NCBI RefSeq assembly: GCF_000192575.1
Contig: NZ_GL876933.1
Location: forward strand, 763,338-827,337
Reading direction: 5' to 3'
Source: Novosphingobium nitrogenifigens DSM 19370
Lineage (GTDB): Bacteria; Pseudomonadota; Alphaproteobacteria; Sphingomonadales; Sphingomonadaceae
DNA length: 64,000 nucleotides
This document shows positions 1 to 49,326 of the stretch, piece after piece; within the stretch, counting starts at the first letter, position 1, and every line of letters begins with the position of its first letter. The notes beneath the pieces are model-generated. The model was not told where the DNA came from, did no database searches, and was given only the letters and a program-made list of their open reading frames with translations. The position numbers and the translations under genes were made by a program.

Positions 1-1540
1 TCGCGGTCGGGCCGCGTCCCTTGGCGGCGGCGGCCTTGTCGCGCGCCGCCTTGTCGCGGGCGAGCGCATCGGCTTCGCGTTCGATCCCGACAAGGTCGGC
101 GCGAGCGGCGGCCAGCGCCTGCGCCGCGCTGTCGCGCGTGGTGATCAGCGTTTCGCGACGTTCGTTGAGGCGCGTGCGGGTCTCGCGCGCAGCGGCCAGA
201 GCTGCGCTCGCCTTGTCGCGGGCCGTTTCGGCTTCGGCCATGCGCAAGGCGGGATCGGGCTCGCGGGCAAGGGCATCGGCTTGCGCAGAGTGACGGGCCG
301 CGTCGGCATCGATGCGGGTCAGCCTTTGGCGGGCCGCCGTGACGGCCGCCTCGGCAACGCGCCATTCTGCATCGATCCCCGCCTGTTCGGCCGTGGCGGC
401 GGCAAGCGCGAGTTCGGCTTCCCGGCTTTGGGTCTCGGCGCGGTCGCGCGCGGAGCGGGCCTCGGGACGGCGCTCTTCCTCGTCCTTGAGGTCCGTTTCG
501 GTTTTTGCCAGATCGCCGGTCAGGCGCGCGAGCGCATCGGCAGCATCGTGGGAAATGCGGTCGGCCTGCCCCCGGTCGGTGGCGATGCGGGCGATCTGCC
601 GGTCGATGTCGGCAAGGCGGTCTTCGGCAGCTTCGAGCTGGGCGGCAAGCCCGGCCATGCGTTGCGCGTGGGCTCCGGCGTCCTGCCTGCGGTCGAAGAC
701 TTCCTCGCGTGCGGCGGCAAGCGCGGCGGCGGCTTCGTGCTGGGCGGTCTGGGCATCGGCGGCGGCCTGCTGCGCGACGATGACGGCGGCCTCGGCATCG
801 CTTGCGGCCTTGCGCGCGGCTTCGGCGGCGCGGTCGGCGTCGCGCCAGCGGGCAAAGACAAGCTGCCCTTCGGCAACACGAATCTTCTCGCTCAGCGCCT
901 TGTAGCGTTCGGCGGCGCGGGCCTGTCGGCGCAAGGCGTTGATCCGGGTTTCAAGCCCCGCGACAAGGTCGTCGAGCCGCGCCAGATTGGTTTCGGTCGC
1001 GCGCAGCCGGGTTTCGGCCTCGCGCCGCCGGACGTGGAGCCCGGCGATCCCGGCCGCTTCTTCGAGCATCATGCGCCGCTCGGTCGGCTTGGCGGCAATG
1101 ACGGCGGCGATGCGGCCCTGGCTGACGAGGGCGGGGCTGTGGGCGCCGGTCGCGGCATCGGCAAAGACGAGCGCGACATCGCGGGCGCGCACGTCGCGGC
1201 CATTGACGCGATAGGCCGAGCCCGCGCCGCGTTCGATGCGCCGGACGATTTCGAGATCGTTGCCGTATGGGCCGGGCTGGTCGGTTTCGGCGGCCAGAGT
1301 GACTTCGGCGAAATCGCGCGCCGGGCGGCGCGCGGTTCCGGCGAAAATCACGTCCTCCATCCCGCCGCCGCGCATCGCCTTGGCCGAGCTTTCGCCCATG
1401 ACCCAGCGGATGGCTTCGAGCAGGTTGGACTTGCCGCAACCGTTGGGGCCGACAATGCCGGTCAGCCCCGGTTCGATATGCAGCTCGGCCGGCTCGACGA
1501 AGCTCTTGAAGCCCGAGAGTTTGAGCCGCTTGAACTGCAT
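1..1540 (-). CDS. smc: Chromosome segregation ATPase SMC, N-terminal part (cut by window edge)
   Basis: SMC forms the condensin-like ring that organises and segregates the chromosome. The reading frame starts at the ATG complementary to 1538-1540 (MQFKRLKLSGFKSF) and stays open to base 1, giving about 513 codons; the family is about 1100-1200 residues, so the hinge, second coiled coil and C-terminal Walker B/signature half lie to the left. The Walker A motif GPNGCGKSN is at residues 31-39, followed by the usual MGESSAK and RRIERG segments. From about residue 170 the protein becomes Ala/Glu/Arg-rich with few prolines, as expected for the first coiled-coil arm. It is the last gene of a minus-strand run after two DsbA-like genes and dciA. 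Family assignment is certain; only its length is unknown. Confidence 0.96.
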   Translation of the reverse strand, partial: MQFKRLKLSGFKSFVEPAELHIEPGLTGIVGPNGCGKSNLLEAIRWVMGESSAKAMRGGGMEDVIFAGTARRPARDFAEVTLAAETDQPGPYGNDLEIVRRIERGAGSAYRVNGRDVRARDVALVFADAATGAHSPALVSQGRIAAVIAAKPTERRMMLEEAAGIAGLHVRRREAETRLRATETNLARLDDLVAGLETRINALRRQARAAERYKALSEKIRVAEGQLVFARWRDADRAAEAARKAASDAEAAVIVAQQAAADAQTAQHEAAAALAAAREEVFDRRQDAGAHAQRMAGLAAQLEAAEDRLADIDRQIARIATDRGQADRISHDAADALARLTGDLAKTETDLKDEEERRPEARSARDRAETQSREAELALAAATAEQAGIDAEWRVAEAAVTAARQRLTRIDADAARHSAQADALAREPDPALRMAEAETARDKASAALAAARETRTRLNERRETLITTRDSAAQALAAARADLVGIEREADALARDKAARDKAAAAKGRGPTA

Positions 1541-46720: not shown

Positions 46721-47164
46721 ATGGCACTTCTCTCGGAATTCAAGGCCTTCATTTCCCGCGGCAACGTGCTTGACCTTGCTGTCGGTGTTATCATCGGCGC
46801 CGCTTTCGGCAAGATCGTGACCTCGTTGACCGAGGATCTCATCATGCCGGTGCTGGGGCTGGTCACCGGGGGCATCAATTTCTCGAACAAGTTCGTCGTG
46901 CTCGGCGCGGTTCCGGCGACCTACAAGGGATCGCTGGAGGACTATGCCGCGCTCAAGGCCGCGGGTGTGGCGCTGTTCGGGTATGGGGCGTTCATCACCA
47001 ATGTCATCAACTTCCTGCTGATGGCTTTCGTGATCTTCCTGCTGGTCCGTTCGGCCAACAAGCTGATGACCAAGCCTGCCGAAGAGGCTGCGCCGCCCCC
47101 GCCGTCGGGGCCGAGTGAAGTCGATCTGCTGATCGAGATCCGCGACGCTCTCAAGACGAAGTGA
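46721..47164 (+). CDS. mscL: Large-conductance mechanosensitive channel MscL
   Basis: A 147-residue MscL that opens under hypo-osmotic shock. TM1 is [29 protein letters not shown] (with the pore glycines/alanines), the periplasmic loop follows, TM2 is [25 protein letters not shown], and a C-terminal cytoplasmic helix ends [15 protein letters not shown]. It is a single-gene unit with a strong terminator. Confidence 0.97.
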
Positions 47165-47227
47165 GCTTTGGGGGCCCAGTGAACCTTGGGCCCAAGTGAA
47201 CGCGGCGTCCGGGCGCCACGGAAAGAG

Positions 47228-47265
47228 GAGGCGGGAACCGCAAGGTTCTCGCCTCTTTTCGTTTT
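47228..47265 (+). terminator. Rho-independent terminator of mscL
   Basis: A 12-bp stem (47228-47239 with 47244-47255, one G-U pair) capped by a GCAA tetraloop and followed by TTTTCGTTTT. Confidence 0.9.
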
Positions 47266-47299
47266 GGCCCCTTTCAATTCGGGGTGGGCGCCTTATATG

Positions 47300-47640
47300 C
47301 GCTCCTGCCGGTCTCGTGCCGGCTATGACGATAAACTGTGGCGTGCAATAGGCACAGCGGACCCGGGGGCGGTACCCGGCGGCTCCACCACCTCTCTCGC
47401 CTTGCGGGATAGATGACGGGGCCGAACTAGGATCGACGTGTGTTGAAAAGCGTTGCTTTCGTCCGGGCTGAGTAACCCGTTAAAGGCTCAAAACTCACAA
47501 GTGCCAACGACAACGAAGCACTTGCTCTCGCTGCGTAACCTGACGGCCTAACGGCCAGATCTTACAAAGCGAAAGCGCGGTTGGACCCGCCGGGCAACAG
47601 AAGGATACCAGGGGTTGGGGGCGTACCTAGCAACAGAAAC
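47300..47640 (+). ncRNA. ssrA: Circularly permuted two-piece tmRNA (alphaproteobacterial type)
   Basis: tmRNA rescues stalled ribosomes and tags the nascent peptide. The acceptor piece ends with CCA at 47390: acceptor strand CGGCTCC (47380-47386), discriminator A, CCA. Its T-arm has a 5-bp stem (47363-47367 with 47375-47379) and the loop GGCGGTA. A 27-nt intervening segment (47391-47417) leads to the coding piece, which starts GGGGCCG at 47418. GGGGCCG pairs with CGGCTCC and gives the G3-U70 pair that identifies alanine tRNA. The 5' GGGGCNGA...GGATCGACG block matches other tmRNAs. The tag frame at 47503-47538 reads ANDNEALALAA then TAA. The order acceptor-spacer-coding is the permuted form. 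Outer limits (47300 and 47640) are estimates. Confidence 0.9.
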
Positions 47641-47670
47641 GCCCTACCTGCCTTTCATTCGAGTTGAGCC

Positions 47671-47910
47671 TCAGGTCCGGTCGTTTTGGGCCTCGGCCGC
47701 TCGTTCATAGGTCAGCGCGTCGAGAATCTTGGCGCCGCCCATGAACACCGCGACCATCGCGGCAAGGAACAGCATCTTTCCGCCAAAGCCGGGAAACTGG
47801 TCGAGATAGATCCGTCCCCGCTCGGCCGCGCCGAGGGCAAGGGCGTAGATGATCGCGAAGGCCTCGATCCGGTTCTTGATGATGAACAGGCGGAGAAGCT
47901 TGCGTAGCAT
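47671..47910 (-). CDS. Small two-helix membrane protein, unknown
   Basis: A 79-residue protein with two hydrophobic segments ([18 protein letters not shown] and KMLFLAAMVAVFMGGAKIL) and a charged N-terminus MLRKLLRLFIIKNR. The C-terminus is hydrophilic. It lies alone between the tmRNA and the ast operon. The composition and codon use look like a real gene, but I recognise no family. Confidence 0.6.
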   Translation of the reverse strand: MLRKLLRLFIIKNRIEAFAIIYALALGAAERGRIYLDQFPGFGGKMLFLAAMVAVFMGGAKILDALTYERAAEAQNDRT

Positions 47911-48060: not shown

Positions 48061-49326
48061 TCAGATCAACTCGTTAAGCCCGGCCTCGTCGAGGAGAGCC
48101 CGCCGCGCCGCAATGACGCTTTGGCCAAGACTTTCAGACCCAAGATCAAGGGGATCGATCTGTTCGGGCCAGGTCCGTGCAACGACTTTGGCAAGGGCGT
48201 CGATCCGTGCTTCGTCGAGCAGGAAGCGCGGATCGACCGTGGCGGGGTCGGCAACCACCCGCAGGCGCAGGCAAGCCGGGCCACCGCCATTGGCCATCGA
48301 CTGACGAACGTCGACGGGCAGGACGCGGCGGATCGGACCGTTCGAAGCGAGCATCGCTTCGAGCCAGGTGCGAACCGATGGGGTTTCCCAGGCCTCGAGC
48401 GGGATGACGAGACCCATTTCGCCCGACGGCAGCGTCAGCAACTGGGCATTGAAGAGATAGGAACGGATCGCGTCGGACAGGCTGACGGCGCTTGCCGGAA
48501 CCACGACGATTTCCGCTTCGGGCAGGGCGGCGCGGATCGCGGCATAAGTGCCTTCGGGATCGGCAAAGGCCAGTTCATGGGTGAACAGCACGCGTTCGTT
48601 GGCGACGGCGACGACATCGTTGTGAAAGGCGCCTGCCGCGATTGCTTCGGTCGATTGTTCGACGAAGAGCGCGCGTGCGGGATCGAGGCCGTGGAGGCGG
48701 GCGACCGCGCGGCTGGCCTGTTCATGCTGGCGTGCGGGGAACAGGCCGCCGGGGCGTCCATAGACGAAGATCTCGAGGCCCGGCGCATCGTGGCGGGCGG
48801 CCATGCGCATGTGGTTGGCCGCGCCTTCGTCGCCGAAACAGGCCGGGACCGCGTCATGGACGGCGAAATGGGCCTTGTCGGCAAAGGCGAGACGCAACTG
48901 GCGCACGGTGTCGGGCCATTCCTGCGACCGATGCGGCATGGTGACGAGATTGGCGGCAGTCAGGTGGCAACGCGCATCGGTGGTGTCGGGGGCGGGTGAA
49001 ACCGTTGCGGCATTGGCCGTCCACATCGAGCTTGCCGACCAGGCCGCAGCGCGCAGGCGGGTTTCGGCTGCATCGGCCGGTTCGCGCGCATCGAGGCCGA
49101 CAGCGGCGAGGAAGGCCGGATTGGGGCGCGGCAGTGGCGCGAAAAAGCCCTGTACCAGTCCCAGATGCAGGTTGTGGCGCATCTTTTCCAACCCTTGCAG
49201 CGCGGCGGCGCGGGGATAGGACGTGTCGCCGCCGTGGCTGGCCGAGGCGAGGTTGCCGAGGCTGAGCCCGGCATAGTTGTGGCTGGGGCCGACGAGGCCG
49301 TCGAAGTTGATTTCTACAAGCGCCAT
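48061..49326 (-). CDS. astB: N-succinylarginine dihydrolase AstB
   Basis: A 421-residue AstB, the second enzyme of the arginine succinyltransferase (AST) pathway: it releases ammonia and CO2 from N2-succinylarginine to give succinylornithine. The N-terminal MALVEINFDGLVGPSHNYAGLSLGNLAS, the middle HNDVVAVANERVLFTHE and QSMANGGGPACLRLRV (catalytic Cys region) are diagnostic. It is the last gene of an operon with astA (18 nt upstream) and an M20 hydrolase. Confidence 0.96.
   Translation of the reverse strand: MALVEINFDGLVGPSHNYAGLSLGNLASASHGGDTSYPRAAALQGLEKMRHNLHLGLVQGFFAPLPRPNPAFLAAVGLDAREPADAAETRLRAAAWSASSMWTANAATVSPAPDTTDARCHLTAANLVTMPHRSQEWPDTVRQLRLAFADKAHFAVHDAVPACFGDEGAANHMRMAARHDAPGLEIFVYGRPGGLFPARQHEQASRAVARLHGLDPARALFVEQSTEAIAAGAFHNDVVAVANERVLFTHELAFADPEGTYAAIRAALPEAEIVVVPASAVSLSDAIRSYLFNAQLLTLPSGEMGLVIPLEAWETPSVRTWLEAMLASNGPIRRVLPVDVRQSMANGGGPACLRLRVVADPATVDPRFLLDEARIDALAKVVARTWPEQIDPLDLGSESLGQSVIAARRALLDEAGLNELI

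Follow-up and report, generated by a model that had tools for sequence, protein, structure and literature searches.

Alanine charging, SmpB-dependent entry into the ribosome and tagging are established tmRNA biology, and a two-piece tmRNA was reportedly described in Caulobacter crescentus by Keiler et al. in 2000. In the accessible part of a review, two-piece processing of the Caulobacter tmRNA is treated as established, and two-piece tmRNAs are counted with PK1 and PK2 alone (PMC3985003); knot names vary by source. The accessible text of Burks et al. 2005 (PMC1168896) describes Caulobacter with pk1, pk2 and pk3, places helix 11 in residues 1-18 of the 83-nt chain B and lists an ACCU tail for pk3 (Table 4). 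In that text pk2 and pk3 are separate elements and are not called copies. As far as the accessible parts of two reviews go (PMC3985003, PMC3968760), tagging can largely do without PK2-PK4, which act in folding and maturation, and in two-piece tmRNAs the knots are reduced without loss of tagging. The Rfam consensus for the alphaproteobacterial genes, RF01849 (alpha_tmRNA), has one terminal element, whereas the locus described here and its own family have two in tandem.

Identity and surroundings of the gene

The window, the whole stretch of 64,000 nt that was analysed, had been given a preliminary description in which the locus was read as a permuted two-piece tmRNA gene and an alpha_tmRNA covariance match was named as a check. 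This match was found. A cmscan of the whole window gave two matches in all, both to the tmRNA gene: RF01849 at 47268-47612 on the + strand, over the full model (227.4 bits, E 1.3e-64), and RF04321 (tmRNA_permuted) at 47327-47538 (141.6 bits); the gathering thresholds are 50 and 47 bits, respectively. ARAGORN called a permuted tmRNA at 47295-47629 with the tag ANDNEALALAA. Both covariance models, ARAGORN and script parsing agree on the circularly permuted order, with the acceptor half upstream of the coding half. The features of an alpha_tmRNA are all present, namely a score above 50 bits, permuted order, G3-U70 with CCA, the tag and the GGCAACAGAA element, and the likeness to RF01849 extends to the acceptor and T arms including the T-loop, the PK1 region and the terminal position of the GGCAACAGAA element. 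The terminal element with the GGCAACAGAA loop occurs in the coding piece in two copies, not one. A chance match is ruled out by the score, the E value, the single genomic match and the full stem pairing. The locus is thus an ordinary alphaproteobacterial tmRNA gene of an already known kind, as the preliminary description had correctly read it.

The gene adjoins mscL (46721-47164, PF01741) on one side. The other flank holds, on the opposite strand, a 79-aa open frame (47671-47910), for which a Pfam search gave no match, followed by astB (48061-49326, PF04996). A 76-aa open frame (47186-47416, +) crosses the acceptor half, where a protein-only annotation could call a spurious gene.

The genome (4.18 Mb, rated 100% complete) contains a single RF01849 match and a single smpB gene (PF01668, E 6.1e-58, in a 163-aa open frame). 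RF01849 is present in 192 of 199 same-family genomes and in 98 of the 99 genomes of an order sample in which the own family is also represented; RF04321 matches were obtained in 133 of 142 class-sample genomes, 131 of them above the cut-off. In the same-family genome G622 (completeness 99%, contamination 1%), two permuted tmRNA genes that look complete (L298 and L299) were found along with a single smpB, and the two tags differ (ANDNEALALAA and ANDNEAFALAA). This could possibly reflect contamination or a second, possibly mobile, tmRNA.

Anatomy of the two pieces

Upstream of the acceptor half, within the 5' flank conserved in RF01849, lies a -10-like TATATG (47294..47299, +), a probable promoter element of the precursor. 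A TATAT, TATAG or TATGT box starting 32-36 nt upstream of GATAAA was seen in 69/69 anchored loci (68 same-family loci and the own locus), two further same-family loci being unanchored and outside this count. A simple sigma-70 promoter scan found none at the TATATG site.

The mature acceptor piece is predicted from the RF01849/RF04321 alignment to span ~84 nt (47307..47390, +), with an estimated 5' end, and to contain helix 11, the 3' strands of the P2 helix, the T-arm, the 3' acceptor strand and CCA. It starts with the hairpin GCCGGT-CTCGT-GCCGGC (47307..47323, +), which has a 6-bp stem and a folding z of -2.02 and is, judged by position, the counterpart of helix 11 in Caulobacter chain B; in both organisms the acceptor chain comes to 83-84 nt and starts with this helix (PMC1168896, in its accessible text). 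A best-stem search without shuffle control found at least four pairs in the 28 nt before GATAAA in 68/68 anchored same-family loci and in the window, and T-A, A-T, G-C and T-G are among the commonest forms of the inner pair of the hairpin. The T-arm (47363..47379, +) consists of the stem CCGGG/CCCGG (47363-47367/47375-47379) and the loop GGCGGTA (47368-47374). It is followed by the terminal segment (47380..47390, +) with the 3' acceptor strand CGGCTCC (47380-47386), A73 (47387) and the encoded CCA (47388-47390). The acceptor stem GGGGCCG/CGGCTCC forms 7/7 pairs, with U70 opposite G3, both by reading the sequence and by script. An intervening spacer of 27 nt (47391..47417, +) is presumably removed.

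The mature coding piece is predicted at ~232 nt (47418..47649, +), compared with 213 nt for the Caulobacter coding chain in the accessible text of PMC1168896, which likewise has pk1, the tag, further small knots and an ACCU tail. Its 5' end is set by the acceptor stem, and it opens with GGGGCCG (47418-47424). PK1 lies upstream of the tag (47464..47490, +) and pairs CGGG (47464-47467) with CCCG (47476-47479) and UGAG (47469-47472) with CUCA (47487-47490); these pairings were drawn by eye from seven sequences, without statistics, in a region covered by both RF01849 and RF04321. The tag frame, with the resume codon GCC, runs from GCC to TAA (47503..47538, +) and encodes ANDNEALALAA-stop according to both ARAGORN and our script. 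The acceptor stem with G3-U70, the encoded CCA, the tag frame and the exact limits of the spacer are all as the preliminary description had given them.

To compare this anatomy across relatives, 131 loci were parsed (own 1, own family 70, order 30, class 30), the parser requiring at least 6/7 acceptor pairs and at least 4/5 T-stem pairs. The order and class loci were the 30 best-scoring each and the family loci the 30 best-scoring plus 40 hand-picked from the ranked list, and hence the sample is non-random. A fully paired acceptor stem (7/7) and T-stem (5/5) and G3-U70 were found in all 131 parsed loci, and ACCA is encoded in all but two class loci, which have ACCC. The T-loop reads GGCAGTA in 58 and GGCGGTA in 12 of the 70 family loci, and one or the other in 29/30 order and 28/30 class loci. 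The supposition that GGCGGTA is typical of the lineage is thereby borne out, and as these loops are usual for the lineage, the odd T-loop is ruled out as a sign of something special. Spacers measure 26-54 nt in the 70 family loci (26-30 nt in 57 of them), 5-58 nt in the 30 order loci and 5-47 nt in the 30 class loci; a variable spacer between two fully paired stems would be in line with maturation into two chains. Six tag types occur in the 70 family loci, each starting with ANDN and ending with AA, most often ANDNEALALAA (34/70) and ANDNEALAIAA (28/70). A locus from the genus of the window, L324, carries the tag ANDNEALALVA, ending in ALVA and not in the usual ALAA, an unusual C-terminus for a degradation tag.

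Two tandem pseudoknots follow the tag

After the tag, two tandem H-type pseudoknots with the GGCAACAGAA loop in common are observed, a feature absent from the preliminary description. Copy 1 (47578..47610, +) has an S1 of CGG (47578-47580) and CCG (47590-47592), an imperfect S2 (47582-47588/47603-47610) with one mismatch and one bulge in the window, and a loop ending in GGGCAACAGAA. Copy 2 (47613..47645, +) has an S1 of GGU (47613-47615) and ACC (47625-47627), an S2 of seven pairs (47618-47624/47639-47645), the outermost being G-U, and the loop ACCUAGCAACAGAA at 47625-47638. A direct repeat of 9 nt, GCAACAGAA, is located at 47594 and 47630.

Pairs were counted in ungapped blocks anchored on the motif. 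A MAFFT alignment, which held 66 of 67 distinct references (L110 was left out), was not used for these counts because its gaps fell inside the copy 2 stem. The first six pairs of the copy 2 S2 are 99.3% paired in 70 distinct sequences, while shuffles gave a mean of 80% and a maximum of 82.9%, and slid registers 45-67%; double changes occur at five of the six pairs. The pair closing the loop was found as T-A (25), A-T (17), C-G (16) and G-C (10) in 68 distinct sequences. All three Watson-Crick pairs of the copy 2 S1 are intact in 70/70 distinct sequences (mean 41.4 and maximum 48 in 500 loop-strand shuffles), with five loop types, ACC, GCC, AGC, GGC and ACG.

For copy 1, the inner three positions of S2 show 92% pairing across 54 distinct sequences (mean of the shuffles 62%, maximum 74%), a set from which L110 was left out, its first motif being a chance one. 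S1 is intact in 54/55 sequences, including the chance motif of L110 (shuffle mean 46.7, maximum 52). L102 has no copy 1 entry, its loop being altered (GGGCACCAGAA), and in L100 the first motif was skipped as a chance one. Since the copy 1 S1 is nearly invariant in sequence, its covariation is statistically weak; compensating forms are seen by eye in L314 (CCG/CGG) and L326-L328 (GGG/CCC). In these comparisons copy 2 covaries strongly in both stems and copy 1 shows covariation in its inner stem, with the shuffles treating sequences as independent irrespective of kinship. Single-strand MFE folding, with a program that cannot form pseudoknots, gave z values of 0.30 for the tandem region, -0.31 for copy 1 and -1.57 for copy 2; the tandem region does not exceed shuffled sequences in stability, and the knots gain no support from such folding.

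Distribution of the tandem knot

Within 140 nt of the stop codon, two motifs were found in 68 of the 70 family loci and in the own locus, three in one (L100, one of them by chance) and one in another (L102, with its altered first loop). L110, counted among the 68, owes one motif to chance, yet it has both knots, the loop of the first being altered. In the class sample, where 46 of 50 loci were parsed (L155, L165, L166 and L171 were left out), 44 loci have one motif, and L092 and L169 have a second far downstream. In L169 this second one is a CCGGGCAACAGAA hairpin that lies ~130 nt past the stop codon and well beyond the terminal knot; another order may here have undergone a partial duplication of its own. 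In the single-motif class loci a terminal stem, mostly 6-8 bp long, carries the motif in its loop, and the first loop bases can pair just upstream, giving a small H-type pseudoknot; this S1 is present in 83 of 86 distinct sequences of single-copy knots (shuffle mean 66.2, maximum 75). Because of its position and its ACCU tail, we take the single terminal knot to be the pk3 of Burks et al. (PMC1168896, as far as its accessible text describes it).

A strict tandem pattern, CCGGGYAACAGAA-20..34-GCAACAGAA, was found in 291 of 396 order-sample genomes. By hand count of the rows these are 285/313 genomes of the own family and 6/83 of other families of the order, the latter being 4/8 in f2, 1/7 in f6 and 1/2 in f7. 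The 28 own-family genomes lacking the pattern were read by eye, and both knots, with a variant loop, were seen in every one; tandem knots are therefore present in 313/313 own-family genomes of the sample. In the one f3 locus there are two motifs, of which the second is altered, and the loci read from f4 (4), f5 (13) and f8 (20) have one motif each. In the f6 loci L144 and L152, two tandem stems follow the tag, the second stem being kept and its GCAACAGAA motif lost. The class sample contains the strict pattern in 5/385 genomes, all five of the own family, and in the other orders, where the strict pattern alone was tried, it occurs in 0/380. The reversed pattern, used as a control, gave 0 in the rows of the order and class scans.

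A scan with the named tail pattern returned at least 119 stretches, and most of the 80 matches listed are from Sphingomonas, Novosphingobium, Sphingopyxis, Erythrobacter, Sphingobium and relatives, while a few carry loose names. A match in a 'Lachnospiraceae' bin (L226) is false, being a low-complexity repetitive stretch in which ARAGORN finds no tmRNA. G481 gave two tandem-tail pattern matches and one RF01849 match; the extra match could stem from the 3' part of a tmRNA gene that an integrating island left behind.

Origin of the second knot and the 3' end of the gene

The annotated ends of the gene, 47612 by Rfam and 47629 by ARAGORN, both fall before the end of the copy 2 closing strand at 47645, and in 30/30 best same-family loci the RF01849 match does not reach the second motif. 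Rfam stops early because its model provides for a single terminal element. The end at 47640 in the preliminary description is also too early, as the closing strand reaches 47645 and is likely followed by an ACCU tail (47646-47649). As this ACCU resembles the tail of the Caulobacter pk3, the 3' end of the coding piece is placed at ~47649. We consider it probable that the last pseudoknot of the coding chain, at its 3' end, was duplicated in tandem and the duplication became fixed in the sphingomonad family and some close relatives, with both knots under selection in the mature two-piece tmRNA, and that Rfam alpha_tmRNA mis-ends the gene there.

Copy 1 might instead be no duplicate, but the ancestral pk2, with a loop that converged on, or was gene-converted by, that of the terminal knot. 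The description of Caulobacter with three knots in the accessible text of PMC1168896 would lead one to expect a knot in this slot, and f5 and some class loci hold a hairpin-like element without the motif in the same place. However, copy 1 of many family loci shares GCGCGGUU...ACCGGGCAACAGAA with the single terminal knot of other orders, and those other-order loci have nothing similar before their terminal knot. The shared string makes a direct duplication the simplest explanation, and we regard descent of copy 1 from pk2 as possible but doubtful.

We judge it unlikely that copy 2 is a hairpin of the 3' trailer, such as a terminator or a processing signal, and that copy 1 is the last element of the mature coding chain, which would then end near 47612. 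The RF01849 match does end at 47612 here and, among the 30 best same-family loci, 15-17 nt past the first motif, and copy 2 forms a stable hairpin close to the end, but the Rfam end stems from a model with one terminal element. It is copy 2, not copy 1, that has the full long stem and a tail of the CACT/CACC/ACC type, both typical of the single terminal knot in other alphaproteobacteria. Moreover, its S1 pairs covary in 70/70 sequences, which a simple terminator hairpin would not need, and no T-run follows copy 2 in the window. The terminator scan lists no site here, its loops of 3-8 only placing copy 2 beyond its reach. A pseudogene or decayed copy can practically be dismissed, as the acceptor and T stems are fully paired, the tag is intact and the locus is the sole RF01849 match in a genome rated 100% complete.

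We regard the tandem terminal pseudoknot as a lineage-specific variant that is modestly new. No description of a tandem knot was found in our literature searches, for which the original two-piece papers were beyond reach, as were the curated tmRNA database alignments and supplements, where the variant may show; PMC11915505 contains no word beginning with 'sphingo'. A likeness is found in the pk4a/pk4b of cyanobacterial tmRNA, where, according to the accessible text of PMC1168896, one knot is replaced by two smaller tandem ones, although in another lineage, at another knot (pk4) and in a one-chain RNA.

Proposed pathway and meaning of the doubled knot

Taken together, the locus can with high confidence be read as the permuted two-chain ssrA of a sphingomonad-type alphaproteobacterium, serving tagging via SmpB, with a 3'-terminal knot that is doubled, likely by duplication. 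A single transcript would start from near the TATATG box and carry the acceptor half ahead of the coding half. Enzymes of tRNA processing, for which the accessible part of a review calls RNase P and tRNase Z probable (PMC3985003), would cut on both sides of the 27-nt spacer, releasing an acceptor chain of ~84 nt that ends in CCA and a coding chain of ~232 nt. By analogy with Caulobacter, the mature RNA would then consist of two chains that pair and rebuild the tRNA-like domain. It would be charged with alanine through G3-U70 and delivered by SmpB to a stalled ribosome, where the frame at 47503 would add the degradation tag (A)ANDNEALALAA. In this family the terminal pseudoknot at the 3' end of the coding chain, which we equate with the Caulobacter pk3, stands twice in tandem, most likely through duplication; the two copies probably both fold, capping the 3' end that the coding chain leaves exposed. 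Folding and capping of this free end is the likeliest role of the doubled knot, because the reviews, in their accessible parts, give PK2-PK4 roles in folding and maturation (PMC3985003, PMC3968760).

As a gene, the tmRNA is textbook biology that calls for annotation alone, and the doubled knot is of mild importance. With it, the 3' end of ssrA is put right across a large, well-sampled bacterial family, and the narrow distribution of the knot means that it could serve as a clade marker. As PK2-PK4 are held to be largely dispensable for tagging in the accessible parts of the same reviews (PMC3985003, PMC3968760), the doubled knot of this family is also a natural experiment on the function of the knots that follow the tag.
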